Origin: Noviherbaspirillum sp. L7-7A
GTDB taxonomy: Bacteria > Pseudomonadota > Gammaproteobacteria > Burkholderiales > Burkholderiaceae_D
NCBI RefSeq assembly: GCF_019052805.1
Contig: NZ_JAHQRJ010000003.1
Coordinates: 186,001-250,000 of the forward strand
Length of the DNA: 64,000 nt
Reading direction: 5' to 3'
Shown: positions 39,588 through 57,975 of the stretch, in pieces
How positions within the stretch are numbered: position 1 is the first letter of the stretch
Layout: each line of letters opens with the position of its first letter
Program-made: the position numbers and the translations under genes
The notes under the pieces: model-generated
What the model was told of the DNA's origin: nothing
The model's database searches: none
Seen by the model: the letters and a program-made list of their open reading frames with translations, nothing else

Positions 39588-39617
39588 GGCGCTGCCGGCT
39601 ATTGGCTGTCGGCTACT

Positions 39618-39959
39618 TCAGGCGGCAGCCTTCTGCACGGCTTCGGCCAGATTGCCGCTGATGGCGAATACCTTGTCCATGCGTGTCAGCTTGAACAGGC
39701 TCTGCACCCCGCCCTTCACATTGCACACGCCCAGCGCACCGCTGCCGCCCAAACCCTTGAGCACCGACACCAGCGCACCCAGGCCGCTGGAATCCATGAA
39801 GTCGACGCCTTCCAGGTCCAGCACGAGGCGCTTGTCGCCTTCCTGCACCAGCTTCAGCACGGCTTCCTTGAACGCCGGCGCCACCGCGCTGTCGAGCCGC
39901 TTTGTCGCGGGTCGGATGATGGCCACGTTCTGCTCGCGGCTGACATTGATGATGTCCAT
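39618..39959 (-). CDS. STAS-domain anti-sigma factor antagonist (RsbV-like)
   Basis: The 113-residue protein is a single STAS domain with DLEGVDFMDSSGLGALVSVLKGL. Ser57/Ser58 are the site normally phosphorylated by an anti-sigma kinase. Dephosphorylated, it would bind and sequester that kinase. The matching HATPase kinase (47269-47763) and SpoIIE-type phosphatase (47769-49505) lie at the other end of the same minus-strand cluster. All three parts of a partner switch therefore bracket the polysaccharide genes. Confidence 0.9.
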   Translation of the reverse strand: MDIINVSREQNVAIIRPATKRLDSAVAPAFKEAVLKLVQEGDKRLVLDLEGVDFMDSSGLGALVSVLKGLGGSGALGVCNVKGGVQSLFKLTRMDKVFAISGNLAEAVQKAAA

Positions 39960-40010
39960 ATTGGTCCTCTTTGTAGTGTGTGGTTTGTCTGTCTGCGACC
40001 CGGCGCCGCT

Positions 40011-40958: not shown

Positions 40959-40995
40959 CTGCACGGCCGCTGCCTCATCGCTCCCATGCCGGCAC

Positions 40996-42441: not shown

Positions 42442-43859
42442 GGCACGCCCTTGCCGCAGGCGCCGCTGTCGGCTGCCACCGGCTGTGGCGGACCGCCGAA
42501 GCGGGTCCTGACATCGGCGCCATAGACTTTCGCCGCATGCTGCTCCCACAGGCCGCGTCGCTGTTTGCCTGGCGCAAGCAAGGTGCCTTTGACCTTGTAC
42601 AGCAGGGCTTCGAGCATGATGCCGTTGTTGTTGGCGGTGAAGGCCTTGATCGGGCCCTTGCCGCTTTCCAGCATGGCTTCGTAATAGCCCTTGTCCTTTT
42701 CATGCTTGTCCGCGATATAGGCAAACAGCCGGTCAGTATAGTCCGACTTCCACAGCACCCACATGCCCAGCGCGGCCTTCAATGACACCGCGGCGAACTG
42801 CGGCACATACTTGCCGGGCTCGGTAATGGTGTTCCAGGGGTAGCCATCGGTATAGACGGTGTCATAGACGAAATAGGGTTCCTGGTCGAGCTGGTGTTCG
42901 CTGCGCGCGGTCAGGATGCCGGTGGCCTGGTAACGGTTTTCCTGCGCCTGGTAGACGCGGTTGGCGAAATCGCGCCGCCAGTGGGCGCCGCGCATGCCGG
43001 CGCTGGCCGCCTCTGGCCCGGTGGCCCAGCCGAACTCGATGCCATCCAGCACATAGCTTTCCGACACCACGTAGTTGTGTTGGGAATACTTGCGTGGGTC
43101 ACGGCTGTCGTAGGGAATCTCGATGCAGTAGATCGGTATGGTTTCATAAGGCTCCGGCGCCGACGCTTGCGCCGTGCCGAAGCCCCACAGGTCGAAGCCT
43201 CGGGCCGCATACTCCTCATACCCCAGGCGGCCCTCCTGCACATACTGCACTTTCTGTTCCGGCGACAGCGAGGCGCCATACAGCATGCCGTTGCGGTCCA
43301 CCACGTTGTCGAACTTCCAGCGCATCACGAAGCGGTCGATGCCCTCGGCATGCTGCGGATACCGGTCCTTGATGATCTGCAGCCATATCAGGAGCCGGCC
43401 GAGGTCGATTGCGGAAAAGCCGATCTCGCCCGGCTTGTTGGCATAGTCGGCCTTTTCCATGGTCTTGGCGTTATAGACCTTGTTGGGCAGCTCGTCACGG
43501 AAGAACCCCATGGCGTTGAAGGTCCTGATGATGGCGCCCAGGCGTTCATCCAGCACTTGCCGGTTCACCAGCCCCAGTTCATGCGCTGCCACCAGCGCGC
43601 CGAGGTAGGAAGCGGTGTCCCACATCGTTGTAGAAGGATAGCTGTCGACCGCATTGACCAGGCCCGTCTGCGGCTGGTAATTGTTCTCGAAATATTTCCA
43701 GGCGATGCGGGCCATGTTGTGTTCCTGCTCGGTCAGCGCGCCGGCCCGTTGCGCATAGCGTTCCGCCGGCATCGTGCCATGGCCGCACTGCGCTGCCGAG
43801 GCCAGCAGCGGGCTGCACAGTGCCGCTGCCAGCAGGAGCCGCGCGAAGCCTGCCTTCAA
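42435..43859 (-). CDS. DUF3131 protein, paralogue 2, exported
   Basis: The 474-residue protein has a signal peptide ending near LLASAAQ and then the DUF3131 repeat-barrel features: RIAWKYFENNYQPQTGLVNAVDSYP, TMWDTASYLGALVAA, GFSAIDLGRLLIWLQIIKDRYPQ, QEGRLGYEEYAARGFDLWGF, VYDTVYTDGYPWNTI and NNNGIMLEALLYKVKGTLL. It probably acts in the periplasm on the polymer made by the adjacent GT2. A C-terminal extension has paired cysteines. ATGA overlap couples it to paralogue 1. Confidence 0.88.
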   Translation of the reverse strand: MKAGFARLLLAAALCSPLLASAAQCGHGTMPAERYAQRAGALTEQEHNMARIAWKYFENNYQPQTGLVNAVDSYPSTTMWDTASYLGALVAAHELGLVNRQVLDERLGAIIRTFNAMGFFRDELPNKVYNAKTMEKADYANKPGEIGFSAIDLGRLLIWLQIIKDRYPQHAEGIDRFVMRWKFDNVVDRNGMLYGASLSPEQKVQYVQEGRLGYEEYAARGFDLWGFGTAQASAPEPYETIPIYCIEIPYDSRDPRKYSQHNYVVSESYVLDGIEFGWATGPEAASAGMRGAHWRRDFANRVYQAQENRYQATGILTARSEHQLDQEPYFVYDTVYTDGYPWNTITEPGKYVPQFAAVSLKAALGMWVLWKSDYTDRLFAYIADKHEKDKGYYEAMLESGKGPIKAFTANNNGIMLEALLYKVKGTLLAPGKQRRGLWEQHAAKVYGADVRTRFGGPPQPVAADSGACGKGVPC

Positions 43860-45202
43860 TTCGCGCCCCCTTCCTGCAGGTTCAGCAGCTTGCCGCCCGC
43901 GATGAACGCCAGGCTTTCCAGCACCACCGCATTGGTATTGGCGGTGATGGCCTTGTTCGGCGCGCCGCCTTCCTCATAGAGGCCGGCATAGAAGCCCTTG
44001 TCCTTGTCATGCAGCGGCGCAGCCGCTTCCACCAGCTGCGTGGTGTACGCGGACCGGTACAGCGCATGCCAGCCAAAGGCGGCCTTGACGCTCATGGTGC
44101 GCAGCTCCGGCATGCTGGCGCCTTTTTCAGTGACCGGGTTCCAGGCCTTGCCGCCGCTGTAGACGGCGTTGTAGAGGAAGTAGGGCGCGCGGTCCAGGTG
44201 GTCTTCGGTGACCGCGGTCAGCTTGCCGGTCTTCCTGTGGCGCTGTTCCTGGGCCCGGTAGACCCGCCATGCCAGCTCGCGCGAGGTGCTGTCCCAGCCG
44301 AATTCCAGGCCGTCCAGCATATAGGGTTCGCTTACCACAAAGTTGCCGGCGCCGTATTTCTTCGGATCGCGCCGGTCATAGGGCACGCCGATGTCGTAAA
44401 TGTCGACCAAGGCGAGCTGGGGCAGGTAGTCCTGCGCGGCATGCACATCCAGTCCCAGCAGGGAGAAGGTCTTGGCCGCGTATTGCTCATATCCCAGGCG
44501 GCCCTCCTGCAACAGCTGGGCGCTGCCATCGGGCGCCAGCGAGATGCCGTACAGATGGCCTTTCTGCGCCAGCCGGCCGGTGTCCCAGCGGCTAATCACC
44601 TGCCGAGCCAGCCCCGTATGCTGCGGATAGCGCCACGCAATGATATTGAGCGGCACCATTAGCCGGCCGATGTCGATGGCCGACCAGCCTATGCCCTTCG
44701 GCGTTTCTTTGCCGGCATAGTCCACCATGGCCAGCGTCTTGACGTCATAGGACTTGTTGGGCAGCGCATTGTCGTACAGCGGCATCTTCGCGAGAGAACG
44801 CAGCGCCTGCGTCATGCGCCGGTCGAATTCTTCTTGGGGCAGCAGTGCCAGCCTCGAGGCCGACACCAACGCCAGCAGGTAGGACGCGGTATCCCACATG
44901 GTGGCGGCCGGATAGTCCTGCACCGAATTGACCAGGCCAGTTGTAGCATTGGTATTGTTCTCGAAGTATTTCCACGCAAGCCGGGCCATGTCCCGCTCCT
45001 GCGGCGTCAGCGGCTGCGCCTTGGGCAGGGCCGGCAGGTCGCTGCTGGCGGTAATGGCCGGCTTGGCAGAATACGCGGCGGGGTTTTCCTCGCCGGCATG
45101 GCGCGCGCTTTCGCGCTCGATCCAGACGGCCAGCATGGTGGCCACCAGCAGGGCAATGATAAAAACGATGGTGCTGCGCGCCTTGACCAGGTTTTCTGTC
45201 AT
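43856..45202 (-). CDS. DUF3131 protein, paralogue 1, membrane-anchored
   Basis: The 448-residue protein has one N-terminal membrane helix (IVFIIALLVATMLAVWI) without an obvious cleavage site. The periplasmic DUF3131 domain follows: RLAWKYFENNTNATTGLVNSVQDYP, TMWDTASYLLALVSA, GWSAIDIGRLMVPLNIIAWRYPQ, QEGRLGYEQYAAKTFSLLGL and NTNAVVLESLAFIAGGKLL. It overlaps the GT2 stop by four bases (ATGA) and is the first of three paralogues, presumably by tandem duplication. Likely an inner-membrane partner of the synthase; activity unknown. Confidence 0.88.
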   Translation of the reverse strand: MTENLVKARSTIVFIIALLVATMLAVWIERESARHAGEENPAAYSAKPAITASSDLPALPKAQPLTPQERDMARLAWKYFENNTNATTGLVNSVQDYPAATMWDTASYLLALVSASRLALLPQEEFDRRMTQALRSLAKMPLYDNALPNKSYDVKTLAMVDYAGKETPKGIGWSAIDIGRLMVPLNIIAWRYPQHTGLARQVISRWDTGRLAQKGHLYGISLAPDGSAQLLQEGRLGYEQYAAKTFSLLGLDVHAAQDYLPQLALVDIYDIGVPYDRRDPKKYGAGNFVVSEPYMLDGLEFGWDSTSRELAWRVYRAQEQRHRKTGKLTAVTEDHLDRAPYFLYNAVYSGGKAWNPVTEKGASMPELRTMSVKAAFGWHALYRSAYTTQLVEAAAPLHDKDKGFYAGLYEEGGAPNKAITANTNAVVLESLAFIAGGKLLNLQEGGAN

Positions 45203-47040
45203 ACGGGATGGGCCTGTTGTTGTTCGTTATTGGACGGCTCGGCCGCTTCTTCCGGCGGCTGCCACTGGGCGGCGCGGATGATGGGGATCATCACGAAGAT
45301 GTTATTAGCGCTCCAGACCAGGTTCACCAGCAGCGCCGGCAGCTCATTGTGCAGGCCCATGCCGAATACCCGGTAGCCGGCATACACCGCGCCGGCCGCC
45401 GTCAGCGCCGCCACCACGATCTGCGGTATCACCAGTGGCAGGAAATTACCTTCCTGCCTTTCCTTGGGCGTGACCGGAAACTTGATCTTCTCGCCCTTCA
45501 GCACGGTCCACAGCGCACGTGCATTGATCGGGAAGAAGGACAGGTAGGACGCCTTGCCTTCCCACTGCCATACGCCCCACATGCCGAACATGAAGGCCAG
45601 TTCGGTGGCGACGATGAAGGGCACCGCGTGCCAGTAGAAGCTGGTGGAATAACTGGACAGCGGCGCGATGCCGGTGAAGAAATAGATGATGGGCGCGGCT
45701 AGGAAGACGATGTTCCATACGCAGCCGAAATAGGACCAGAAGGTCGACAGGTACATCAGCCGCTGCGGCCAGCTCATGCGGCCGCGGAACAGCGGATTGT
45801 CGCGGAAGAAGATGTCCAGCGTGCCGCCGGCATACTTGAAGCGCTGGATCATCCATGACAGCAGGTCCTGCGGCGACAGCATCTTCGATTCCACTTCCGG
45901 ATGCATCACCGACTTCCAGCGCCGGTCGATATCGTTGTGCAGCACGATGGAGGTATAAATGTCTTCCGATACATGAAACTTGTAGGGCGTGAACTCGGTT
46001 TCCAGCACGACCTGGGTACGCATCGCGTCGCTGAAGTCGGCCCGGATGGCCGCATCGGGAATCTGGTTGGCATACTTGCTGACCTCCTTGTCCACGCTGA
46101 GCGCAAACGCCCGAAGCGCAGCCTGCATCACTGCCTCGCGCCTGTGCAGCGAGCCGGCGCCGCAGCAGAAGGCGGCATTGGCCCAGTTGCGGCGCCGCAG
46201 TAGGATGTCATAGAACATCTTGGGGTCGTTGACAAAGGGGTCGCGTCCGACCGGCACCCGGCCGAATACCCTTTCGACGGCGCGGCCCAGCCAGCGGCCG
46301 GGGCGGCCCAGCGACTGCTGCAGGTAGTCCGGCAGCGGCGTGCCTTCTGGGATGTCGAAGAACCATTGCGGCGTCTGCACCCAGGCCACGTCCGGGTCGC
46401 GAAAGTAGCCCATCGTATGTTCCAGTATGGTCGGGAACAGCCGAGTGTCGGCGTCGCAGATAATAATGAAGTCGCCGCCGGTGTTTTCCAGCGCATTGCG
46501 CAGGTTGCCGGCCTTGAAGCCGATATTGCTGGCGCGGGTGATGTAGTTCACGCCTTCCTCGGCGGCGACCTGCCGCATCAGCGCGCGCTTGCCATCGTCG
46601 AGCACATGGATCTTCAGGTCCAGCGGATGCGGGTAACGTATTGCCTTAGCATCGCGTATCGAGATGCGCACCAGCTCCTCGTCTTCGCTATAGGTGGTGA
46701 TGAAGACATCCACCGCGATCGGCCGCTCTTCGCCGGACGCATTGCCGGTGCACTCCGCTATCGTGGCCGGCGGCGCGCTGCGCGGCGTGTCCTGTACCTT
46801 CCAGAGATTGATGGTGAACAGCACCAGGCCGATGTAGGCCAGGGTTTCGGCCAGTGCCAGCGGGATGGCGAACCAGAGGGCATCGACATTGAGAGATTCC
46901 ATCCAGCGCCAGCGGATGTAGTTTGCGCCCAGCACCACGGCGATGACGGCCAGGAACTGCCAGACCAGTTCGATGGCGGGTGAATGCGGCAGTGGAGGAG
47001 GCGGCCTGCGACCTTCAAATTTCTCAAAATAGAATGCCAA
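45199..47040 (-). CDS. Family 2 glycosyltransferase, cellulose-synthase-like, without PilZ
   Basis: The 613-residue inner-membrane processive glycosyltransferase has two N-terminal helices and a GT-A domain with LDD (147-149), CDADTRLF (DxD 196-198) and SED (358-360). About four C-terminal helices follow. Where BcsA-type synthases have QxxRW it has QRFKY (399-403), then AGGTLDIFF. There is no C-terminal PilZ domain, so cyclic di-GMP control of the BcsA type is absent. The only possible start next to the upstream in-frame stop is TTG at 47040 with GGGGAA before it. It probably makes a beta-glucan or similar polymer handled by the DUF3131 proteins. Confidence 0.88.
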   Translation of the reverse strand: MAFYFEKFEGRRPPPPLPHSPAIELVWQFLAVIAVVLGANYIRWRWMESLNVDALWFAIPLALAETLAYIGLVLFTINLWKVQDTPRSAPPATIAECTGNASGEERPIAVDVFITTYSEDEELVRISIRDAKAIRYPHPLDLKIHVLDDGKRALMRQVAAEEGVNYITRASNIGFKAGNLRNALENTGGDFIIICDADTRLFPTILEHTMGYFRDPDVAWVQTPQWFFDIPEGTPLPDYLQQSLGRPGRWLGRAVERVFGRVPVGRDPFVNDPKMFYDILLRRRNWANAAFCCGAGSLHRREAVMQAALRAFALSVDKEVSKYANQIPDAAIRADFSDAMRTQVVLETEFTPYKFHVSEDIYTSIVLHNDIDRRWKSVMHPEVESKMLSPQDLLSWMIQRFKYAGGTLDIFFRDNPLFRGRMSWPQRLMYLSTFWSYFGCVWNIVFLAAPIIYFFTGIAPLSSYSTSFYWHAVPFIVATELAFMFGMWGVWQWEGKASYLSFFPINARALWTVLKGEKIKFPVTPKERQEGNFLPLVIPQIVVAALTAAGAVYAGYRVFGMGLHNELPALLVNLVWSANNIFVMIPIIRAAQWQPPEEAAEPSNNEQQQAHPV

Positions 47041-47268
47041 TTAGGTTCCCCGTAGCGTTCAGGCGGGCAGGCCGTTGCAGGTCGTCCTCCCATAGGGGGG
47101 CACTTGGCCTGCGAGCGGCCTTGACTGGCGGATGCCGGAGAAGACATCAGGTCCACATTACTGTCTCAGAAATCCACACGGGTCTGGTGCAAAACCTGCA
47201 CGACGCTTGACGGGATCGAAATTTTCCCTGCTTCCCGGATGGAATACGCGCCTGGTTATGCCGAGGCC

Positions 47269-47763
47269 CTATTCGTTGCCAGGCAGCGCCTGCACGTGTT
47301 TCACCATGCGCAGCAGATTGCTGCCATTGGCGGACTCGTAATCGATCTGGTCGAACGTATTTCTCATCAGCGACATGCCCATGCCGCTTTCGGGCAGGCT
47401 GTCGATGTCCTGCGGATTGAAGTCGAACACGGCATCATCGCCGCCGAACAGCATTTCGCTGGAGATGGGCTTGCCCTGGTCGCGCAGTTCGATGGTGATC
47501 ACGCCTGCCGACAAGCTGTAACTCACCTCGATCACTCCATGCTCGCTACTGCCGTAGCCATGCTTGACGATGTTGGTCATGGCCTCGACTACGCCTATTT
47601 CCATTTCCGACTTGGCCTCTTCCGGCACTTCCGGCGGAATGAAAAAACGAAGCGCCTGGGCCACGCGCGAGACGTCTTCCAACGTTGCCTCGAACATGAA
47701 GCTGGCGCGCCTCACCGGTTTGTCGGCGGACTGGGTCATCGATGGCGTAATGGGGTCGGTCAT
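47269..47763 (-). CDS. HATPase-type anti-sigma regulatory factor (RsbW-like kinase)
   Basis: The 164-residue protein has the GHKL ATP-binding fold. An N-box lies in EIGVVEAMTNIVKHGYG (Glu60, Asn64), then ELRDQGKPIS, and a G-box in ESGMGMSLMRNTFDQIDY. In partner-switching systems it phosphorylates an STAS protein and binds a sigma factor or other target. It starts five bases after the phosphatase gene ends. No sigma factor gene is near, so its target may be something other than a sigma factor, for instance the polysaccharide machinery. Confidence 0.9.
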   Translation of the reverse strand: MTDPITPSMTQSADKPVRRASFMFEATLEDVSRVAQALRFFIPPEVPEEAKSEMEIGVVEAMTNIVKHGYGSSEHGVIEVSYSLSAGVITIELRDQGKPISSEMLFGGDDAVFDFNPQDIDSLPESGMGMSLMRNTFDQIDYESANGSNLLRMVKHVQALPGNE

Positions 47764-47768
47764 GGCAG

Positions 47769-49505
47769 TCAGGCTCGCTGAACAGGGGGTTGATCTCGAT
47801 GGGCGGCGCTGTATTGCAGCGCCAGGAAGGTCATGTCGTCCTTGGTGGCGGCGGGGTCCGGATTCCATTCCAGCAGCGCCGACTCCAGCGTGGACTTGAC
47901 CTGTTGCAGCGGCGCGCCAGCCTCGCGGCGCAGCAGCTGTGCCAGCCTTTCCGTGCCGAATTCGACACCATAACTGTTTTCGGACTCGGTGATGCCATCC
48001 GAATACAGATACAGCCGCGAACCCGGGTCGAGGCGCAGCCGCAGCACCTCGAAGCCGGCCTTTTTCAATATGCCGATCGGCAGGCCGCCATTGCCGATCA
48101 CCTGCAGGCTGGCGTTGTTCTGGTGCCAGACCATGGGATGCGGATGGCCCGCCTGCACCAGTGCCACCTCGCCGGTCTGCCCGTCGATCAGGCCATAGAC
48201 CATGGTCAAGTACATGCTGGTCGGATTGGCGCGATAGAACAGGCGGTTGAATTCCTGGACCACCCGTGGCGCGGCCGCGCCCAGGTTGTAGTCTAGCCTG
48301 CGCAGCACCTTGAGCGCTTCGGAGCGATAGGAAAACAGCTGGCGCTGCACATCCAGCGCCAGCAGGGCCGCTGCCACGCCATGGCCCGACACATCGATGA
48401 TGTGGAAGCAGGCATAGCGTTCGTTAAGATTGAAGTAATCGAAGATGTCGCCGCTTAGGTAATGCGACGCCCTGAACAGCCAGTCGAAGCGGGTGTTGCC
48501 TATCCAGCGTGGTGGCGGCAGGAAGTGGAGCTGGGTTTCCCGCGCTAGCTTCAGCTCGTCATCAAGCTGGTTGTAAGCGCGTGACAGCTGGCGGTTGCGG
48601 CTTTCGAGTTCCGCCTGTAGGCCCTGCCTGACCTGCTCAGCATGCTTGCGCTCCGAAATATCATGGCCGACCGAGATGATGGTATCGAACTTGTCGAAGC
48701 GCAGCCGCTGTAGGCGCATTTCGAGCTGCTCGGCCTGCGTGGCGCCATCCGGCTCGCGCGGCCGTTCCAGCTCGACCACTGCCCGGGCAATCCGGCCGGA
48801 CCGCACTTCATCGAGCAGCCGCTCTGCCGTAGATCCCGGCGCCGCAGCCACCACCTCGGCAAGGGTGCCTTCCCTGACGTTCGTGCCCAGGCTAGCAGCG
48901 GTGCGTTCCATGGCGGCGTTGGCATAGACGCAGCGCAGGCTGTGAGCGTCTGCGAGCATGATCTCGTCGGGAATCTGGTCCAGCACCTTCGCCATGAACT
49001 GCATGCGGGCGTCGCGCTTCCTTGTCTTGATCAGCGAGGCCACCACGTGCGACAGCTGGCGCAGCGACTCCAGCTGCCAGTCCGACAGCGTCGCAGGCTG
49101 GTCCGACAGCACGCATACCGTGCCCAGCCGGTAGCCTTCCTCGCTGACCAGCGGCACGCCCGCATAGACCCGGATGGCCAGATCGCCTGTCACCAGCGGA
49201 TTGTCGGCAAAGCGGCTGTCGGCACTGGCATCCGGCACGTGGAACACATCCCCCTGCAGGATGGCGTGGCTGCAGAAGCTGATTTCGCGCGAGGTCTCCC
49301 GCCCGTGTTTCCATCCATACGATGCCTTGAACCACTGCCGGTCCGCGTCCACCAGGGTAATCAGCGCATAGGGCACGCCGCAGATCTTGCCGGCCAGTGA
49401 TGCAATGTCGTCGAAGACCGGGTCGAGCGGCGTGTCGAGCAGGTCGTAGCTGTAGAGATTATCCAGGCGTTCGGCTTCATTTTCCGGTAGTGGCGCAATT
49501 TCCAT
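47769..49505 (-). CDS. SpoIIE/RsbU-type serine phosphatase with GAF and PAS-like sensors
   Basis: The 578-residue protein has an N-terminal GAF domain (about 10-160; ISFCSHAILQGDVFHVPDA), a PAS-like region (about 170-290; VLDQIPDEIMLADAH), a coiled linker, then a PP2C-like SpoIIE domain. In that domain YLSGDIFDYFNL, FHIIDVSGHGVAAALLALDV and LYLYSDGITE supply the metal-binding Asp residues. It should dephosphorylate the STAS antagonist when a cytosolic signal is sensed. ATG 49505 gives the usual GAF start; a GTG at 49550 is possible, and neither has a good ribosome site. Confidence 0.88.
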   Translation of the reverse strand: MEIAPLPENEAERLDNLYSYDLLDTPLDPVFDDIASLAGKICGVPYALITLVDADRQWFKASYGWKHGRETSREISFCSHAILQGDVFHVPDASADSRFADNPLVTGDLAIRVYAGVPLVSEEGYRLGTVCVLSDQPATLSDWQLESLRQLSHVVASLIKTRKRDARMQFMAKVLDQIPDEIMLADAHSLRCVYANAAMERTAASLGTNVREGTLAEVVAAAPGSTAERLLDEVRSGRIARAVVELERPREPDGATQAEQLEMRLQRLRFDKFDTIISVGHDISERKHAEQVRQGLQAELESRNRQLSRAYNQLDDELKLARETQLHFLPPPRWIGNTRFDWLFRASHYLSGDIFDYFNLNERYACFHIIDVSGHGVAAALLALDVQRQLFSYRSEALKVLRRLDYNLGAAAPRVVQEFNRLFYRANPTSMYLTMVYGLIDGQTGEVALVQAGHPHPMVWHQNNASLQVIGNGGLPIGILKKAGFEVLRLRLDPGSRLYLYSDGITESENSYGVEFGTERLAQLLRREAGAPLQQVKSTLESALLEWNPDPAATKDDMTFLALQYSAAHRDQPPVQRA

Positions 49506-49818
49506 AAAGGGCGTGAAGTGGGTGAAATTCCGTTCCTGGTCGTCTTGCACGAAGGAGGCAGACTGGTAATACCGCCAGGTGCCGAAGCGTTACTCCGCGG
49601 CTGCTCTCGTTCGGCAGACCGTCAGCTTGCTTTTGCCGTGATGCGTGATGCTCCGGTGTGGCATGTGTGTGTGCCCGACTTGCGCTTGGCATCGGCGGGA
49701 ACGCCGACTAGACTCATGGGCGCAATTATCAGCTGCTTTTATTCCTCACGAAGCCGCTTCGGGCATGGTTCATGTGTTTGAACAAGCCTTCCGAACCCGG
49801 CAGGCCAGCGGCAGGATT
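49506..49818. other. Intergenic region, no gene seen
   Basis: This 313-base stretch separates the phosphatase start from the end of the VOC protein gene. It should contain the promoter of the minus-strand partner-switch and polysaccharide cluster. I see no clear -10/-35 pair, stem-loop or coding frame with family resemblance. Confidence 0.4.
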
Positions 49819-50301
49819 CTACCGTCCCGCCCGTGCCGCCTCGATTGCGGCGATGTCGATCTTCTTCATGGTCATCATCGCCTCGAATGCCCGCCTTGCC
49901 GCTGCGCGGTCGGGATCGGTAACCGCTGCCAGCAGGGCACGCGGCGTGATTTGCCATGAAATGCCCCATTGATCCTTGCACCAGCCGCAGGCGCTTTCTT
50001 GGCCGCCATTGCCCACAAGTGCATTCCACAGCCGGTCGGTCTCGGCCTGGTCGTCGGTTGCGATCTGGAAGGAGAAAGCCTCGCTGTGCCTGAAATGCGA
50101 GCCGCCATTGAGGCCGATGCAGGGTATGCCGGCGACGGTGAACTCGACGGTAAGCACATCGCCCTGCTTGCCATCGGGATAATCGCCCGGCGCATGGTGG
50201 ATGGCGCCGACGGCGCTGTCGGGAAAGGTCGCCGCGTAGAAGCGCGCAGCGTCAAGGGCGCCGCCTTCGTACCAAAGACAGATGGTGTTCTTGCTGCTCA
50301 T
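49819..50301 (-). CDS. VOC superfamily protein (PhnB/3-demethylubiquinone methyltransferase-like)
   Basis: The 160-residue protein has the PhnB-like pattern: CLWYEGGALDAARFYAATFPDS, EFTVAGIPCIGLNGGSHFRHSEAFSFQI, CGWCKDQWGISWQITPR and a C-terminal AFEAMMTMKKIDIAAI. The annotation as a ubiquinone methyltransferase common for this family is not supported by biochemistry; it is a vicinal-oxygen-chelate fold protein of unknown substrate. It stands alone, followed on the same strand by nothing until the polysaccharide cluster. Confidence 0.85.
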   Translation of the reverse strand: MSSKNTICLWYEGGALDAARFYAATFPDSAVGAIHHAPGDYPDGKQGDVLTVEFTVAGIPCIGLNGGSHFRHSEAFSFQIATDDQAETDRLWNALVGNGGQESACGWCKDQWGISWQITPRALLAAVTDPDRAAARRAFEAMMTMKKIDIAAIEAARAGR

Positions 50302-50443
50302 TTAGACTCTCCTGTGATGTGTGGGCATGCCTGCGGCGCCTTGCAGCGGTCGTCTTGTTCACCTCATGCCAGGCTTCAAGGGCTGCTCGCGCTTCAAGTC
50401 CTGCTGGATGAAGCGTCACGCGTCAGCAGGCTCCACGTTGCTA

Positions 50444-50731
50444 CTAAAGTCCTTCGACCGATACAAGGCGAGTGGAGCTGCATGCATTCCGAACTGCCTT
50501 GAGACCGTGATAGACAGGGCCGGTGTAGAACGCTTCCCATGCGCTCACGGACGGAAATTCCAGCACGACGATTCTTCGGGGCTGCCAGTCGTCTTCGTAG
50601 ACCTTGTGGGCGCCGCCTCGTGCCAGATAGCGCGCGCCTGCTGCTTCAAGCGCAGGCTTGACCCCTTTCATGAATTCCTGCTATTTCGGCACATCACGGA
50701 TTTCAACATCGAAGATCACATAGGCACTCAT
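50444..50731 (-). pseudogene. DUF1330 protein with an early amber codon
   Basis: From the ATG at 50731 the frame reads MSAYVIFDVEIRDVPK, then TAG (50681-50683), then QEFMKGVKPALEAAGARYLARGG and IVVLEFPSVSAWEAFY, the normal DUF1330 dimeric-barrel sequence. Homologues have Tyr or Glu-Tyr where the stop falls, so TAY to TAG is likely. An internal ATG at 50671 would give only 75 residues without the first strand. Family function unknown. Confidence 0.75.
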
Positions 50732-51552
50732 TTGAATCCCCTTTGATTTCCGACCAGTTGCCTTTCCAGCATGGAGCGCCTGGAGCTCGGCTGCTAACCG
50801 GGCGTGGATATTGGAGCAGATGTGGCGTGTAGCGCCGAGTTAAACAGCATGCGCCACGGACTGCGAAGCGGCAAGCTCCTTCGTGGATATTCGAGTCGGC
50901 CGCTCAATCAGAGAGACGCAGCCTGTTCGTCGCCAAGGGTCTTTTACGGCATTGAGCGCAGGTGCCTCCTGCGTACTGCATGGTAACGCCCGCCAACAGG
51001 AAAAAGCTGCTTCGGATTGCCGCAGCTGGCCGGTTCTCCTTACCCCGCGATCAGGTCGGCTTCCGGCCAATAACAGTCGATTGAATCAAATCGTTCAACG
51101 TCCGCTGTAAAACGCATTCGTGACGACCGGCGGTAATCTCCACTTTAACGCCGAACTTGAACCGGTTCGTACTTGAGGATAGATCGCTTGAACGAGTTGA
51201 TATATGGCAAGCACATTAATATTGGTATGGCAGTTGGCTGCCAATGTCAAAGTAGATCGGCAGCCATTGACAGAAGTAGGCAATTGGCTGTACCCAGGGC
51301 TGACTGCGTGTCTAAGCGCCAGTTATCTGATTTGCCGTTGACCGTACGCATAGAAATCCTGGCGACATTCATGGGATTATCTAAAAATAAATTATCGGTA
51401 CATTGTGCTACATCGGCTTGGATCTGTTGCCTATAAGCTGCAATTAAGGCCTACGCCGAACTTTCTCTACAAGATGCAACCAGGCAAAAAATTGTTGCTC
51501 CATCCATCGAATTTTTCGATTATCCCTATGCTTTACTGTTTTAAAGGTAAAT
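50732..51552. other. Long AT-richer non-coding region before the VWA cassette
   Basis: No frame in this 821-base stretch resembles a known protein on either strand, and the last 450 bases are clearly less GC-rich than the surroundings. A small dyad ATCGAA-TTT-TTCGAT (51506-51520) lies about 33 bases before the VWA start, and AAAGG precedes its ATG. The region is a probable promoter/regulatory zone of transferred DNA, or decayed sequence at a junction. Confidence 0.5.
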
Positions 51553-52491
51553 ATGAGCACTCCTGAGCGTCCTGGTATTACCCCAGTTTCTTCCATTCCA
51601 TCTTCTTCCGAGCCTGGCGCTACGCCGGCGGGAATTCTGCCTGGCGCAGATACTGCGACCAGCACGACCGAAGTCCCAACCGAAGTGCTCATCAACGAAT
51701 CTGCTCCTAGCGCGGAGACATCGGCTGGCGTTGCTGAACCTGCGGTAGCCGCACCCGTGCCGCAGACGCGCGCCAAGACCAAGGGTGTCGCCGACCTGGT
51801 GTTCGTTGTCGATGTAAGCGGCAGCATGGCGCCCTGTATCGATGCGCTTCGCGGAAACATCGAGATCTTCATCGATTCCTTGAATCGGGGGGACGCAAAC
51901 AACGCTGCGCCGGTCAGGGATTGGCGCGGCAAGGTCGTGGGCTACCGCGACATCGAAGCAGCCGAGTCCGATGGATTGCCCTGGATTATCGACAATGAAT
52001 TTGTTCGTGATGCCGGCGCGCTCAAGGCGCAACTGTCGAGGCTGCAGGCTGCAGGTGGCGGCGACGAACCCGAATCGCTTCTCGATGCGCTCTATAAGGT
52101 CGCGTCGATGGAGGCAGTGCCCAAAGGTTCGCAGACCGAGGACCCGAACAAGTGGCGCTACCGCAGCGATGCGGCACGCGTCGTTATCGTCTTTACCGAC
52201 GCCTCGTTCAAGGAGACCATGAGCATCAACGAGGCCAAGGGCGGCTCGCTGCAGGACGTCGCCAACGTGATCATGGCCAACCGCGTGATCCTCAGCCTGT
52301 TCGCCCCCAATTTCGAAGGCTATGACCGCTTGAGCCAGATCGACAAGTCCGAATGGGAAGTTGTCGAATTCGAGGGCCTGAATCCCCAGGAAGCGCTTCA
52401 GAAATTCACTTCGGACCCGGTCAATTTTCGGACCACGCTCAAGCAACTGGCCGCCAGCGTGTCGCGTTCGGCCGAAACAGTTGCGCTGTAG
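51553..52491 (+). CDS. VWA-domain protein of a kinase-phosphatase cassette (TerY-like)
   Basis: The 312-residue cytosolic protein has an ~80-residue Ser/Thr/Pro/Ala-rich N-terminus, then a von Willebrand A domain. The metal-ion-dependent adhesion site reads DVSGSM (87-92), with GGGDEPES (167-174) and FTDA (213-216) as further ligands. In TerY-type systems such proteins scaffold a kinase and a phosphatase. The following kinase gene starts 40 bases downstream. The low-complexity N-terminus is rich in Thr and Ser and could be the phosphorylation target. No signal peptide is present. Confidence 0.85.
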   Translation: MSTPERPGITPVSSIPSSSEPGATPAGILPGADTATSTTEVPTEVLINESAPSAETSAGVAEPAVAAPVPQTRAKTKGVADLVFVVDVSGSMAPCIDALRGNIEIFIDSLNRGDANNAAPVRDWRGKVVGYRDIEAAESDGLPWIIDNEFVRDAGALKAQLSRLQAAGGGDEPESLLDALYKVASMEAVPKGSQTEDPNKWRYRSDAARVVIVFTDASFKETMSINEAKGGSLQDVANVIMANRVILSLFAPNFEGYDRLSQIDKSEWEVVEFEGLNPQEALQKFTSDPVNFRTTLKQLAASVSRSAETVAL

Positions 52492-52531
52492 GCAAGCGCT
52501 GGGTTCTTCCTGCTGAAAGTTAACATCGGTT

Positions 52532-53893
52532 ATGGCCAAAAAGCTAAAAGTCGGCGACGTCCTGCACGGTTATCGCATTAACAAGGTGTTCGGACCGGGC
52601 ATGATGGCGATTTCCTATGGCGCGCAGATACGTACCGGCCAGAAGGTATTTTTCAAGCAGTACAAGTCGCCGGCGCCTACTGTCGTTTGGTACGAAGCCT
52701 TCGTGGCGTATCAAAAAGAACTTTCGGCTCGTGTGCGCAACGGCAAGGCTGGAGATTTCGCGGTTCGCCAGCTCGATGCCTTTGAGGATGTCTGGGGTGG
52801 GCGATGCTATTTCCAGACCTATGAGTTTGTGGAAAACGGCGCCGATCTGCAGCAAGTGCTCGATGCCGAGCGTGAGCAGCACCGGCTAACGAAATCCGCG
52901 CCTGCACGCGACCCGGCGGTTTGGGCTCGTCACGTGACCTGGGCCAAGGTCTTGATAACGGCCGTCGACGCCTTACATGCATCCAAAGTCGTCCATGCAG
53001 ACTTGAAACCGGCAAACGCCTATCTGATCAGCGATCCGACAATCAGCTCGGGCTACCAGCTCAAGCTGATTGACATGGATTTTTCGCTGCTTGCAGATCG
53101 GCGAGCGCCCTGGCACGGCCACCAGGGCTATGTCGGCACTGACAATTACCGTTCGCCCGAGCACATGACGCGCGGGGGAGTGCCGGGACTGCCATCGGAC
53201 GTCTTCACCTGCGGACTGATGCTTTACGAATTGCTGACGGGCGAACATCCCTATTGGCGCGACGACCCGGGCGAATATGCCAAGCTCGTCATGGCGTACG
53301 CCGCTAAGCCGCCTGCGCTGCTGGGCCTGATGCAGGCGCCGGCGAGCAATGCCGAGGTGAGCGCCGCCCTGCATCGCTGTCTGTCGCCCGACCCTGCCGC
53401 CAGACCGACTGCCGCCGAGTTGCGTGCTATTTTGAGCGGACGTGGCGCAAAGGCCGAGCCGCCCAAGCCGGCAGCGCCCGCGCCCGCTGCACGTTCCCCG
53501 GCTCCAGGAGCCCCGGCGGGAAGCGCCACCAGGGCCATGCCCACTGCAAGCGATGACGCCCGCGCCGCCGCTGTGCCTATCGTGTCCGATGGGCTTGAAC
53601 TGACGGCCCCTGACGGCCGCTCAGTGCGGATCGGCATACGAACCGAGCTTGGCAAGGTGCTGGTGCGCCAGTTCGGACCCGACGGCGAATTCTGGGACAA
53701 CCGCCAATGCGTACTCGAGCGCAATTCAGGGCGGCAATGGTTCGTGTCGCCGGTTGCGGGAACTATCAACGAAACCTTAGTCAATGGCAAAACGATTACC
53801 GCACCGACACTGCTCAGGCAAGGCGATCTGATTGCAGTTGGCCGTCAGGCGAAAGGCGTCGTCAAGATGCCGCTCACGGTGCGTGCGCGCTGA
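52532..53893 (+). CDS. Ser/Thr protein kinase with C-terminal FHA-like domain
   Basis: The 453-residue protein has a eukaryotic-like kinase domain (about 10-300). A divergent glycine loop GPGMMAISY and ATP-binding Lys42 are followed by the catalytic loop HADLKPAN (155-162), DMD (181-183) in place of DFG, and the activation segment VGTDNYRSPE (201-210). A Pro/Ala linker (about 305-345) joins an FHA-like domain (about 355-453), recognisable from NETLVNGKTI and LLRQGDLIAVG. The usual phosphopeptide-contacting Arg-Ser-His set is degenerate. It probably phosphorylates the VWA or zinc-ribbon partner. The phosphatase gene follows after eight bases. Confidence 0.9.
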   Translation: MAKKLKVGDVLHGYRINKVFGPGMMAISYGAQIRTGQKVFFKQYKSPAPTVVWYEAFVAYQKELSARVRNGKAGDFAVRQLDAFEDVWGGRCYFQTYEFVENGADLQQVLDAEREQHRLTKSAPARDPAVWARHVTWAKVLITAVDALHASKVVHADLKPANAYLISDPTISSGYQLKLIDMDFSLLADRRAPWHGHQGYVGTDNYRSPEHMTRGGVPGLPSDVFTCGLMLYELLTGEHPYWRDDPGEYAKLVMAYAAKPPALLGLMQAPASNAEVSAALHRCLSPDPAARPTAAELRAILSGRGAKAEPPKPAAPAPAARSPAPGAPAGSATRAMPTASDDARAAAVPIVSDGLELTAPDGRSVRIGIRTELGKVLVRQFGPDGEFWDNRQCVLERNSGRQWFVSPVAGTINETLVNGKTITAPTLLRQGDLIAVGRQAKGVVKMPLTVRAR

Positions 53894-53901
53894 ACTGGGC
53901 A

Positions 53902-55206
53902 ATGGCCACTCTCATGCAAACTCCTGAAGACAATGTTGCTCGTCCGGACACTGCGCCAGTCGTGAATGTTGACGACCACACTGTTGCAGAGGCGCCGGTC
54001 GACACGGTGCCTGCCCCGGTATTTGATGCGCCTGGCCATGACGAAGATGCTGGCTCCAGATCTGAAGTAGCCGAAACGGGCAAAACATCCGAATTGTTGG
54101 TCGCATCGCCGGTCATAGAGGTGCGCGATCTTGATTGGCAGGCGGTTCGCAGTGCCGCCAATCCTGCGGCGATCCGTGCCCGGATGCACACTGCCATCGA
54201 ACAGATGGAAAAGTTGCTCGATAAATCCGGCGGCCCCGGCATGCTGTTCGACACCGACCGGGAAGGCGATGCAGACCGGGCGATCCGGGTTTCCATGCCG
54301 GCGAGCGGAGGTCCACTGTGGATAATCGGGGATCTGCATGGCGATCTACCGGCGCTTGAGGCGGCGCTGGCGCAGATCCGCAATCAGGCAGCAATCGAAG
54401 GCAACGCTGCGCCACGCATTATCTTTCTCGGCGATTTTTTTGACGACGAGGGTTACGGTCTCGAAGTCTTGCTGCGTGTTTTCGAATTGATCGTCTCAGC
54501 GCCCGAACTGGTCTGCGTTATCGCAGGCAATCACGACGAAGCGTTGTCCTATGACGGCGTCCGGTTCGCGTCGAGCGTATCGCCATCGGATTTCACTGAC
54601 TTTCTAAACGCCAACCTTGCGCACGAATGGATCGAGCGCGCTGGCAAGCTTGTGGTGAGGCTGACGGCGCGCTCGCCGCGCGCGCTGTTTTTCCCGGATG
54701 GACTGCTCGTTGCGCATGGCGGCTTCCCGCTGACGGACCTGCATCCACGTTTGGACGAAACCGGGGATTGGAACGATCCGGCATGTCTGTCGGATTTTGT
54801 TTGGAGCCGTGCGCATCCGAAGGCACGCAGAAAGATGCCAAACCGGTTCTCGCGCGGCAGCCAGTTCGGCTACCTCGATTTCGCTGACTTCTGCGCGTTG
54901 AGCGCCCGGCTAGGCAGGCGGGTCACGCACATGGTGCGGGGCCATGATCATGTGCAGGAGCGATACGCAGTCTACCCTGCCTATGAAGCGCATCCGCTGC
55001 TGACAACGGTGGCGCTGTCGCGCCGCTTGAATCGCGAGCAGTTCGGTCCCTACGAGCGTGTGCCGTCCCTGGTGCGGGTGGTCGAAGGGGCCTTGCCGCA
55101 AATATTCCAATTGCATATTCCAGGCGACATGATCAACGAATTCTTTCCACAACCCGAAAATGGTGCCCCTCCCGGCACCCTCGACTCCGGAGATCCCCAG
55201 CAATGA
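53902..55206 (+). CDS. PPP-family (calcineurin-like) phosphatase of the cassette
   Basis: The 434-residue protein has an acidic disordered N-terminus (about 1-70) and a metallophosphatase core: GDLHGD (143-148), GDFFDD (177-182), GNHDE (209-213), VAHGGFP (270-276) and RGHDHVQ (346-352). These are the metal and phosphate ligands of PP1/PP2A-like enzymes, so a protein phosphatase opposing the upstream kinase is likely. TerY-P triads described so far carry a PP2C enzyme; here an unrelated phosphatase class takes its place. ATG 53902 lies eight bases past the kinase stop; the end overlaps the next start by ATGA. Confidence 0.9.
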   Translation: MATLMQTPEDNVARPDTAPVVNVDDHTVAEAPVDTVPAPVFDAPGHDEDAGSRSEVAETGKTSELLVASPVIEVRDLDWQAVRSAANPAAIRARMHTAIEQMEKLLDKSGGPGMLFDTDREGDADRAIRVSMPASGGPLWIIGDLHGDLPALEAALAQIRNQAAIEGNAAPRIIFLGDFFDDEGYGLEVLLRVFELIVSAPELVCVIAGNHDEALSYDGVRFASSVSPSDFTDFLNANLAHEWIERAGKLVVRLTARSPRALFFPDGLLVAHGGFPLTDLHPRLDETGDWNDPACLSDFVWSRAHPKARRKMPNRFSRGSQFGYLDFADFCALSARLGRRVTHMVRGHDHVQERYAVYPAYEAHPLLTTVALSRRLNREQFGPYERVPSLVRVVEGALPQIFQLHIPGDMINEFFPQPENGAPPGTLDSGDPQQ

Positions 55207-55817
55207 GCGGCGTAGTGCTGCGTTGCCCGAGCTGCGGCACAACGAAGGCCACCTCCGGCGAATGCGAAGCTTGTCACGAGGCCCAAGTTCGCTATTACTG
55301 CAGTAACCACACTCCCGGGCGCTGGCTAGATACCCCATCGTGCCCGCAATGCGGAGCGCGCTTCGGCGAGCCAGAAGACGCTCCCGTTCGCACGACGCCT
55401 GGCGCGCCGCCCCATCGCCCCGGACAATCCGCGCCATCGACGACGGAAGGCGTGCCAGGGTCCTCGCCCGGGTCAACGCCGCGTCCCGTGCCGCCATCGG
55501 CGACACGGCCCACGGCCGGTGACGGTTCAAGCGGCGGTCCAAAACACTCGGCACCGAGCGGCGATGAAGAGATCGATCTGCGCGGCAGGTACGCCCCGCC
55601 CGGCCTTAGCTTGAGGGACTTACTCGAGGCGGCAAGCAGAGCCCGCCACGCCCGCCCGGACGGGGTGTTCGATGGTGAGACTGCAGGCCCGCGCCGACCA
55701 CGGCGCGGCGGCTGCCTGGGGCGTCTCATATTGATCGTGATATTTCTGTTTCTTGCATTTATGGGCGGGGTGAGTCTGCTCGGGGGCTCAGTGTTCCGCT
55801 TGTTTTTGCCCTATTGA
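55203..55817 (+). CDS. Zinc-ribbon protein with C-terminal membrane anchor
   Basis: The 204-residue protein opens with zinc-ribbon cysteine pairs CPSCG (8, 11), CEAC (21, 24) and CPQCG (47, 50), plus CSNH (33-36). A ~90-residue Pro/Ser/Gly/Thr-rich linker follows, then a basic stretch RRPRRGG and one membrane helix (LILIVIFLFLAFMGGVSLL) at the C-terminus. The ribbon would face the cytosol. It is translationally coupled to the phosphatase and may tether the kinase-phosphatase set to the membrane; this role is inference. No homologous named family is recognised beyond the ribbon. Confidence 0.8.
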   Translation: MSGVVLRCPSCGTTKATSGECEACHEAQVRYYCSNHTPGRWLDTPSCPQCGARFGEPEDAPVRTTPGAPPHRPGQSAPSTTEGVPGSSPGSTPRPVPPSATRPTAGDGSSGGPKHSAPSGDEEIDLRGRYAPPGLSLRDLLEAASRARHARPDGVFDGETAGPRRPRRGGCLGRLILIVIFLFLAFMGGVSLLGGSVFRLFLPY

Positions 55818-56216: not shown

Positions 56217-56819
56217 GTGTCGGTTCCCTGGAACAAGGGCAGGCTCGTTGGCCAAAAGGCGTCATTGAAACTCAAAGGGATTTGGGCTATCCGGATAAGG
56301 CTCCAGCATGCCGAAAAAGCCCGTGATTTGGCGCGCTTCAACCTCGCCATTAATAGCAAGTTGCGTGGCTGTGATTTGGTAAGCCTGCGCGTCTTGGATG
56401 TCGCCCAAGGCAAGGCCGAATTGCCGCGCGCCATGGTCATGCAGCACAAGACGCACCGTCCAGTGCAGTTCGAGATCACCGAGCAGACTCGGCAATCGGT
56501 CGCAGCCTGGGTCGAGAAGGCGCACTTGGCTTCAGGACAATATCTTTTTCCGAGCAGGGTAGCCAAATCACCCCATTTGTCCACCCGGCAGTACGCGCGC
56601 ATCGTGGCCCGCTAGGTGGAATCAATTGATTTGGATGCATCCTCGTATGGCACCCACACTATGCGACGGACAAAAGCAACACTGATCTGCTGGCGGACAA
56701 AAAACCTGCGGGCCGTCCAACTTCTTCTGGAGCATACGAAGCTGCAGAGCACGATGCGCTACCTTGGCATGGAGGTTGACGATGCGCTTAAAATAGCCGG
56801 GCAAACGGCGGTGTCGCAC
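56217..56819 (+). pseudogene. Short tyrosine recombinase/integrase, amber-interrupted
   Basis: The frame reads VPWNKGRLVGQKASLKLKGIWAIRIRLQ, then SKLRGCDLVSLRV and KTHRPVQFEITEQTR, then TAG at 56613-56615. It continues in frame with YGTHTMRRTKATL and LLLEHTKLQSTMRYLG. This is the ~200-residue tyrosine recombinase family common in proteobacteria; His-x-x-Arg and the late Tyr are present. The stop most simply comes from TGG (Trp in homologues). Similarity ends near 56819, although the frame stays open to 57083, antisense into the hydrolase gene. A vestige of an integrative element next to the VWA cassette. Confidence 0.85.
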
Positions 56820-56946
56820 TTGGTCGGTAAGCGGGGCAGAGCAGCAGGACGCTTACCGGCCAGGATTCGATCTCCGCCAGGGATCGCAGCCGCTGCCTGC
56901 ATTGGAATGGCGCGCATGAATCCCTTATGCCTGAAACGGTTGACCG

Positions 56947-57975
56947 CTACTGAAGAGCGCTGTCAAAAAACCGGTTCAGCTCGGTCGCCAACTGTTTCTG
57001 GAAGGCGGACCGGTCAAGGCCCTCCGGGTTGGCGCGAAGGTCACCATCCGGCGACGGGATCGGCATGCTGGGCGTGTCCATGAAAGCGTAATGCCCGGCA
57101 TTGGGAACCGCGTGGTACGCCACCTTGGCGACGTTCTGCCTTACCCACTCGGCATGGTAACGGGGAACCAGAAAGGTGTCCTTGTCGCCGGCATAGACAG
57201 TCGCGGGAATCCCGATCGTTGCAAGCGATTGGGCGCTGAACATCACACTCGCCGGCGCCAGCGCGGCCACTGCCCGCACCCGCGCATCCTGCAAACCTTC
57301 GAAGGATATTTTCGCGGTTGCGGCATTCGTCCCTCGTCGCCCCATCGAACAGAAGATGGGGTCATTGCTGTCCGTTTTGCAATGGCTTGCAATGCGCGCC
57401 AGATCCGGGACGCCGCCAGCCAGCGCCAGTACCGTGTAGCCGCCGGCCGAGTGACCCACGGCGCCGACGCGCGGGCCATGGGCGTCGACCTTGATGCGCG
57501 CTGTCCATTCCGGGTCAAGCAAGATCGCATCGATCACCCGTGAAGCCTGACGGGGCCGCTCGCTGAAGTAGTAGCCACCCGGTACGCCAAGCAGCGACTG
57601 GTCTTGCCAGTTGTCGCCAGGGTGGCGCATCGCGGCGACTAGGTAGCCGTTCCTTGCCAGCGCCTGCGCAAGACTGTGGTGCCCGAGCTCGGTGCCGCCG
57701 GTGCCATGGGTCAGCAGCAACAAGCCCTTGACGCTGGCATCCGGCTTGCCGTTGATGGCAACGGTCGGCGTGAAGGGACCCATCGCAATGGCCCTGGCGC
57801 TGTCTTGCGTCGGATAGAAAAGTGCGACATGAATCGCTTCCTGGATCCTGCCTTGGGCGGAGGCGTCGAATTGCCTGAAGCCGGCTTCAGTTGCCCACAC
57901 CGGGCTGGTGGCCATCAGCAGGCTTGCGGCTGCCAGGGCGGAGCGGAAGCCACATTGGACGGGTTTGGTTCGCAT
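56947..57975 (-). CDS. Exported alpha/beta hydrolase (dienelactone hydrolase/chlorophyllase-like)
   Basis: The 342-residue protein has a signal peptide (LAAASLLMATSPVWATEAG). The hydrolase fold carries LLLTHGTGGTELGHHSLAQALARNGYLVAAMRHPGD, the nucleophile elbow GHSAGGYT, an acid in VYAGDKDTFLVP and a late His in NAGHYAFMDTP. It is a predicted periplasmic esterase or amidase of unknown substrate. The ATG at 57975 follows AAGGAA. It is divergent from the TetR-MFS unit, with a 463-base gap. Confidence 0.85.
   Translation of the reverse strand: MRTKPVQCGFRSALAAASLLMATSPVWATEAGFRQFDASAQGRIQEAIHVALFYPTQDSARAIAMGPFTPTVAINGKPDASVKGLLLLTHGTGGTELGHHSLAQALARNGYLVAAMRHPGDNWQDQSLLGVPGGYYFSERPRQASRVIDAILLDPEWTARIKVDAHGPRVGAVGHSAGGYTVLALAGGVPDLARIASHCKTDSNDPIFCSMGRRGTNAATAKISFEGLQDARVRAVAALAPASVMFSAQSLATIGIPATVYAGDKDTFLVPRYHAEWVRQNVAKVAYHAVPNAGHYAFMDTPSMPIPSPDGDLRANPEGLDRSAFQKQLATELNRFFDSALQ

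Follow-up and report, generated by a model that had tools for sequence, protein, structure and literature searches.

In the bacterial TerY-P triad a TerY-like VWA protein is encoded together with a PP2C phosphatase and a Ser/Thr kinase that carries a C-terminal zinc ribbon (PMC11090510). In the archaeon Sulfolobus the vWA protein ArnB is phosphorylated by the kinase ArnC and dephosphorylated by PP2A, and its phosphorylation tightens binding to ArnA, a protein with a zinc finger and an FHA domain (PMC6509490, PMC12852372); ArnA and ArnB of S. islandicus repress DNA-damage-response genes (PMC10470591). The archaeal PPP phosphatases nearest to those of eukaryotes share an operon with genes for ZnR-FHA (zinc ribbon and FHA) and vWA-beta-barrel proteins (Schaeffer et al. 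2020, PMC7016017). Here we describe a cassette of four genes, encoding a VWA protein, a kinase with an FHA tail, a PPP phosphatase and a zinc-ribbon protein, in a 64,000-nucleotide stretch of the genome of Noviherbaspirillum sp. L7-7A (contig NZ_JAHQRJ010000003.1, positions 186,001 to 250,000; hereafter the window, in whose own numbering positions are given). It is one conserved, rare and horizontally moving unit, and in Alphaproteobacteria its relatives are preceded by a putative general-stress promoter. The cassette occupies positions 51553-55817 of the plus strand as four intact open reading frames (ORFs) in a row:

51553..52491, plus strand: VWA-domain protein, 312 amino acids (Pfam VWA_4, E 2.5e-8)
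52532..53893, plus strand: Ser/Thr protein kinase with a C-terminal FHA domain, 453 amino acids (Pfam Pkinase, E 9e-23; FHA, E 2.1e-5)
53696..53842, plus strand: FHA domain match of the kinase, non-canonical, residues 389-437 (Pfam, profile and alignment)
53902..55206, plus strand: PPP/calcineurin-type metallophosphatase, 434 amino acids (Metallophos PF00149, E 1.5e-12)
55203..55817, plus strand: zinc-ribbon protein, 204 amino acids (no Pfam match over cut-off; alignment)
55224..55352, plus strand: presumed zinc-binding part of the zinc-ribbon protein (C8 C11 C21 C24 C33 H36 C47 C50)
55725..55781, plus strand: predicted membrane helix near the C-terminus of the zinc-ribbon protein (Kyte-Doolittle mean 2.91 over 19 residues; alignment)

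Forty bases separate the VWA gene from the kinase gene and eight the kinase gene from the phosphatase gene, and the phosphatase and zinc-ribbon genes overlap at an ATGA. This arrangement had been noticed in a first-pass annotation of the window and agrees with the ORF coordinates; the motifs picked out there, HADLKPAN and DMD for DFG in the kinase and GDLHGD, GDFFDD and GNHDE in the phosphatase, are all present. Its identification of the parts proved right as well: the FHA match at the end of the kinase exceeds the Pfam cut-off, the phosphatase that it placed in the PPP class instead of PP2C matches Metallophos families in Pfam and PPP enzymes in the PDB, and a set of eight Cys/His positions together with a hydrophobic C-terminal helix is found in all 37 zinc-ribbon copies checked (a count that leaves out loci L006, L038 and L039). 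That the four make up a single phospho-signalling unit, as it proposed, is upheld by the Pfam families and by the recurrence of the gene order in distant taxa. The VWA gene has a single match in its own genome (5.22 Mb in three contigs, the window lying on one of 523,829 bases).

Conservation as a unit was followed in a GTDB-wide profile scan of one genome per species, in which exact short peptide patterns were required, so that relatives can be missed. The scan gave 33 loci, and in 31 of these tblastn found the order VWA-kinase-PPP-zinc ribbon. The exceptions are L019, cut by a contig end before the VWA gene, and L039, a divergent planctomycete locus where the zinc-ribbon position is occupied by a Cys-rich ORF unmatched by tblastn or Pfam; in the gemmatimonadete L038, extra ORFs lie between the kinase and PPP genes and the zinc-ribbon gene runs off the contig. 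The loci come from Alphaproteobacteria (Rhizobium, Microvirga, Bradyrhizobium, Methylobacterium, Roseomonas and relatives, Sphingomonas) and from Polaromonas, Myxococcales, a deltaproteobacterial bin, one Gemmatimonadetes bin and one Planctomycetaceae bin. All four genes are also present in G299, a further genome of the window's order. Among 72,556 plasmid records, tblastn with the PPP protein matched nine (seven of Rhizobium, two of Microvirga); searches with the kinase (at E 1e-40), PPP and zinc-ribbon proteins returned these same nine and no others, and that with the VWA protein returned them at 60% identity or more, along with four other records below 60%. Six of the nine plasmid loci were examined, and all six have the four genes, including L006 with its broken frames. 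The genes are thus linked and not scattered, the point on which the first-pass annotation had let its proposal stand or fall.

The genes also appear to have evolved together. Pairwise distances of the four proteins co-vary across 37 loci (Mantel r 0.78-0.93, reached by none of 999 permutations), four-base overlaps are common at the kinase/PPP and PPP/zinc-ribbon joints, and the ratio of nonsynonymous to synonymous substitution rates (dN/dS) lies between 0.03 and 0.38 in 20 gene comparisons. The four genes are maintained in one order under purifying selection; the recurrence of the order in distant taxa and these dN/dS values show that the arrangement is more than chance. We found no description of the four-gene bacterial cassette in the open-licence literature, though one may exist elsewhere. 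In L006 (CP050552.1) it is the PPP and zinc-ribbon frames that are broken, through sequencing error or decay, whereas the five further plasmid loci examined have open frames.

Upstream of the VWA gene, each of the 28 alphaproteobacterial loci scored carries a site of the form GGAAC-N16-[C/T]GTT, with a spacer of 16 and at most one mismatch to GGAAC-N16-CGTT. The site lies at -63 to -87 in 27 of them; in L036 the tie-break selected a site at -139, a second being present at -67. Published motifs are GGAAC-N16-CGTT for EcfG1 of R. etli and GGAAC-N17-20-GTT for S. melonis (PMC3892343, PMC6599016), and by its agreement with these the site looks like an EcfG general-stress promoter. The match is perfect in the three Sphingomonadales sites only; elsewhere the mismatch is mostly TGTT for CGTT, and the five Acetobacterales copies have TGAAC or GCAAC. 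Nine representatives at genus level share the boxes but differ in their spacer sequences. Sites at spacer 16 occur by chance in 141 of 41,820 random 31-position windows taken from the same loci, a figure that covers 31 positions and this one spacer, whereas the actual search spanned 130 positions and spacers of 15-18. Nine VWA starts had been moved for the count, seven to a start with a Shine-Dalgarno-like sequence and those of L036 and L037 by N-terminal homology; with starts as the ORF calls gave them mechanically, 26 of the 28 loci have a site between -300 and +60 that departs from GGAAC-N16/17-CGTT at one position at most, compared with 1-10% of random 360-base pieces, depending on the group. 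L006, a 29th alphaproteobacterial locus, has the motif too and stands outside the 28, its PPP and zinc-ribbon frames being broken and its VWA frame lacking a start.

Outside the Alphaproteobacteria no spacer-16 site with one mismatch or none was seen upstream of any of ten copies, the window's included (L038 has one at +2), nor upstream of the G299 copy. Allowing a spacer of 17 yields one-mismatch sites in L009 (at -71) and L039 (at -170), about the chance level. EcfG is described as confined to Alphaproteobacteria (PMC3892343); a motif lost once the cassette had been transferred would be in line with this. The leader of the window's copy shows no sigma-70-type promoter. The three Polaromonas copies (L009, L010 and L040) have in common a TAAATTTT-like stretch about 100 bases upstream of the VWA gene, possibly a promoter element of their own. 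The vWA gene described in a study of rhizobial stress lies in the prkA/spoVR operon and not in this cassette (PMC3188799).

In the predicted model of the VWA protein residues 1-75 are mostly disordered and residues from about 76 to 310 form the VWA fold, nearest, among the best 50 entries listed in a structural comparison, to the integrin beta-I and TFIIH VWA domains; D87, S91 and D216, which we take to be positions of the metal-ion-dependent adhesion site (MIDAS), are invariant in 19 copies, and position 89 is S or T. In an alignment of 24 kinase copies K42, H155, D157, K159, N162 and D181 are invariant and E63 nearly so, with DMD instead of DFG in at least 90%. The kinase model (predicted local distance difference test score, pLDDT, 85) comprises a PknB/CaMKII-like kinase fold, a low-confidence linker at 308-345 and a C-terminal beta domain. 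The profile of this last part matches the FHA domains of Ki-67 and Rad53, besides others, and by sequence it belongs to the FHA family; the canonical phosphothreonine-binding residues are missing, GK standing for GR and D, N or E for the Ser that contacts the phosphothreonine, while the N of N-E-T is retained.

The phosphatase keeps D144, H146, D178, N210, H211, H272 and H348 invariant in 24 copies, behind a variable N-terminal tail; these are the positions of the six metal ligands and the catalytic His of the PPP family. Its Pfam matches at E up to 1 are to Metallophos families only, and the best PDB relatives of its profile are plant BSU1, calcineurin and PP5. The arginine of GDxVDRG is absent from the window's copy, which reads GDFFDDEG; L039 retains GDFIDRG. 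In the zinc-ribbon protein a Pro-rich linker precedes the C-terminal hydrophobic helix.

With the TerY-P triad the cassette shares the joint encoding of VWA protein, kinase and phosphatase, the presence of a zinc ribbon, and a mobile, sporadic distribution. The phosphatase of TerY-P, however, is a PP2C and not a PPP, its kinase ends in a zinc ribbon (or an OB fold) and not in an FHA domain, and in the cassette a protein of its own, with a helix in its tail, bears the zinc ribbon; the cassette's VWA protein is weakly TerY-like (a weak match to the PADLOC TerY model, E 0.0056 over 37 residues), and its alphaproteobacterial copies have the EcfG-type motif. Among 132 flanking ORFs scanned for linkage to Ter or restriction/defence genes, a trait of TerY-P, no listed PADLOC model is matched more than once, although single matches occur. 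Lacking a PP2C, having an FHA tail on the kinase and resembling TerY weakly, the cassette fits the family poorly, and we do not count it as a TerY-P triad. The Kinase(ZnR)-PP2C-vWA genes of GAP1-N2 GTPase systems likewise combine kinase, phosphatase and stand-alone vWA, but with a PP2C, in actinobacteria and tied to GTPase conflict systems (PMC7159879).

Judged by domain content, the Arn network and the archaeal operon are closer matches in parts than TerY-P. The Arn network (ArnA, ArnB, the kinases ArnC and ArnD and a PP2A-type PPP) has the same parts list, and its vWA protein is the common target of a Hanks-type kinase and an opposing PPP, the three parts that the cassette also combines. The arrangement differs: in the window it is the kinase that carries the FHA domain, a different protein has the zinc ribbon, and in bacteria the kinase lies within the operon. 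The archaeal operon likewise holds PPP, ZnR, FHA and vWA together, although it is archaeal and neither a kinase nor bacterial counterparts are named in the section that describes it (PMC7016017).

The two most divergent copies come nearer to the archaeal layout. Between kinase and PPP genes, L038 and L039 have extra coding sequence (L038:8288-9662, L039:2615-2998) that includes ORFs of 128 and 127 amino acids respectively; these two match each other at E 2e-11, and we label them ZnR-FHA-like from their ArnA-like layout. The 128-residue ORF of L038 has a zinc-ribbon-like start, and a part of it is 40% identical over 81 amino acids to a second FHA protein of the same locus, itself over the Pfam cut-off for FHA. 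Pfam finds zinc ribbons below cut-off in both small ORFs; the FHA part is below cut-off in L039 and unseen in L038.

Beyond shared domains, no sequence link between the cassette and the Arn proteins was found with the VWA and FHA profiles and the VWA model. The VWA profile had no PDB match at E 0.1 and the single VWA sequence had two matches only, at E 0.73 and 1.5; the FHA profile did not match ArnA at E 1; ArnB/vWA2 is absent among the best 50 structural-comparison entries listed, which proves nothing. Because of this, and because the extra domains of ArnB and a separate ArnA are missing, we have not filed the cassette as a member of the Arn network.

On balance we think that the cassette is probably a self-contained switch built around the VWA protein, one that is stress-induced, tethered to the membrane and worked by reversible Ser/Thr phosphorylation. 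The zinc-ribbon protein would anchor the complex at the membrane through its tail helix; the kinase, kept on its partner by its FHA domain, would phosphorylate the VWA protein and possibly also the variable tails that this protein and the phosphatase carry; the PPP phosphatase would reset the switch, and the phosphorylation state of the VWA protein would decide its binding of further partners. Levels of the four proteins would rise jointly in Alphaproteobacteria as part of the general stress response. We draw the model by analogy from archaeal ArnB, which binds ArnA according to whether ArnC has phosphorylated it or PP2A has removed the phosphate; the output would lie outside the cassette and not be encoded by its four genes. 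Function in the window's host is something we infer, as is a role at the envelope, to which a single feature points, the helix conserved in the tail of the zinc-ribbon protein.

Several observations weigh against this phospho-switch as we have drawn it. The nine VWA starts were re-chosen after the promoter sites had already been seen; many of the 28 loci are close kin, representing some nine genus-level lineages; 25 of the 28 sites have one mismatch to GGAAC-N16-CGTT, and a search for exact matches to a stricter pattern, with [CG]GTT, found 1 of 38 loci. The window's own copy has no EcfG site, its best candidate having three mismatches, so the link to stress suggested in the first-pass annotation has motif evidence in the relatives, at all 28 alphaproteobacterial loci scored, and not in the copy on which it was based. 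The FHA domain, without canonical phosphothreonine contacts, may have lost phospho-peptide binding. As to the archaeal model, the window has neither the beta-sandwich and C-terminal helix bundle of ArnB, the modelled protein consisting of a VWA domain and a disordered N-tail, nor a separate ZnR-FHA protein corresponding to ArnA.

If the proposed phospho-switch is real, the cassette would be a compact one-operon bacterial Ser/Thr switch with a eukaryote-type PPP, able to move between genomes and controlled, in Alphaproteobacteria, by the general stress sigma factor. Its components, from kinase and phosphatase to likely substrate, reader domain and anchor, would all be known in advance, which is rare in bacterial Ser/Thr signalling, and the promoter motif offers a direct experimental handle in genetically tractable rhizobia. 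The main new lead is this motif; switches made of kinase, phosphatase and vWA protein are as such already known.

A different role for the zinc-ribbon protein would make the cassette a sensor of zinc or envelope stress, in which that protein would gate the kinase/phosphatase pair in response to metals, redox conditions or the state of the membrane. The invariance of its eight Cys/His positions and tail helix would suit such a function, as would the company the cassette keeps: in a flank set of up to two nearest ORFs per side at 40 loci (132 proteins; 133 were selected and the L039 zinc-ribbon ORF left out), the commonest Pfam families among the 25 listed of 116 are histidine-kinase ATPase (7), PAS (6) and HisKA (6), counts that fit signalling loci and have no background count beside them. 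Zinc ribbons are, however, often structural, the flank clusters listed include no conserved gene recognisable as a metal transporter or regulator, and nothing separates sensing from anchoring; we regard the sensor as unlikely. No conserved fifth gene emerged from the 45 flank clusters listed for the 40 loci (L003-L041 and the window). The largest of the extra clusters consist of PAS/histidine-kinase-like ORFs at 18 of the 40, again with no background count, and of others that read as antisense artefacts.

More doubtful still is a TerY-P-like module for conflict or phage defence, with a PPP enzyme in place of the PP2C, in which phosphorylation would arm a nuclease or other effector encoded elsewhere. 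Modules like TerY-P are reported to act in defence (PMC11090510), and the cassette's sporadic distribution and transfer would be in keeping with this. The kinase scores against the PADLOC models MAD6 (9e-25) and PD-T4-6 (2e-23), but 33 PADLOC models match it and the matches look generic, while the match of the VWA protein to TerY is the short one given above. Single flank ORFs match AbiEi, reverse-transcriptase, GajB-type and other models; yet no PADLOC model is matched by more than one of the 132 (among the 25 listed of 115 models, with no background count), and no effector is conserved beside the cassette in the clusters listed. The stress-sigma motif of the alphaproteobacterial copies and the lack of any PPP homologue in 50,697 phage records also speak against such a module, and the defence role suggested in the first-pass annotation is not supported.

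A regulator of type VI secretion like PpkA/PppA/Fha would have the same parts, namely kinase, phosphatase, FHA and VWA, but its phosphatase is of a different class and no type VI secretion gene was recognised among the flank clusters or the Pfam families listed, which makes it very improbable. That the four genes are accidental neighbours from unrelated operons is refuted by their identical order in distant taxa, full co-occurrence on plasmids and co-varying distances.

A broader proposal, put forward tentatively and as a possibility only, is that one ancient phosphorylation switch gave rise both to the bacterial cassette and to the archaeal PPP/ZnR-FHA/vWA operon (ArnA/ArnB/PP2A): bacteria would have kept a mobile operon that contains the kinase, deep-branching copies would have kept ZnR-FHA, and Alphaproteobacteria would have wired the operon to EcfG. 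That archaeal PPP clade is regarded as the source of eukaryotic PP1, PP2A and calcineurin, so the cassette would, if this were true, be the bacterial branch of the switch behind eukaryotic PPP signalling, and would bear on the origin of eukaryotic PPP phosphatases and of vWA/FHA signalling.

The distribution and surroundings of the window's copy concern three further features:

51200..51552, plus strand: AT-richer leader of the window's cassette, without an EcfG-type site (best 3 mismatches)
49523..51552, no strand assigned: edge of the variable segment; colinearity with the same-genus genome G1024 stops at 49523
56217..57083, plus strand: recombinase-like sequence in two ORF pieces (56217-56615 and 56616-57083), from reading of the ORF list; debris downstream of the cassette

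The PPP protein is rare: with the window's own genome counted each time, it occurs in 1 of 274 genomes from the class, 2 of 399 from the order and 1 of 398 from the phylum; a PPP profile that does recover the own genome found it in none of three of the same genus. In a tree of concatenated VWA, kinase and PPP proteins from 38 loci, rooted on L039 with L038 branching next (supports are from the unrooted tree), the window and Polaromonas copies cluster with those of Myxococcota (support 100). This group joins a Rhizobium plus Microvirga group (itself at 100) with support 78, and these together with Bradyrhizobium have support 91, the remaining alphaproteobacterial copies falling outside. The window/Myxococcota group nests inside the alphaproteobacterial copies (support 78-91), a placement that suggests, with moderate branch support, that the cassette was transferred out of Alphaproteobacteria. 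Searches for a viral source gave nothing, none of 138 pattern matches in viral contigs encoding a relative and the phage records being negative as stated, and we rejected a viral origin.

G1024 is colinear with window positions 36641-49523 at 89% identity, and the match ends sharply 2 kb before the cassette; that relative therefore lacks the cassette at this place. The leader is AT-richer, as the first-pass annotation had remarked: G+C content is 0.55-0.56 in 2-kb windows between 50 and 53 kb and 0.60-0.72 in the remaining ones. The recombinase debris it saw downstream also finds a counterpart, ORF 56217-56615 being 59% identical to L005:6497-7156, an ORF beside the Microvirga ossetica cassette; of the 132 flank ORFs from all loci, two match the Pfam family Phage_integrase. 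Horizontal transfer, which the first-pass annotation had proposed, is supported by the sporadic distribution, the nesting in the tree and the break in colinearity with G1024. Beyond the break G1024 has other DNA, including an ORF that reads as transposase-like. To the left of the island edge, at 47269-49550 of the window, lie what read as a GAF/PP2C-type regulator and a small ATPase-like anti-sigma kinase, another phospho-switch.

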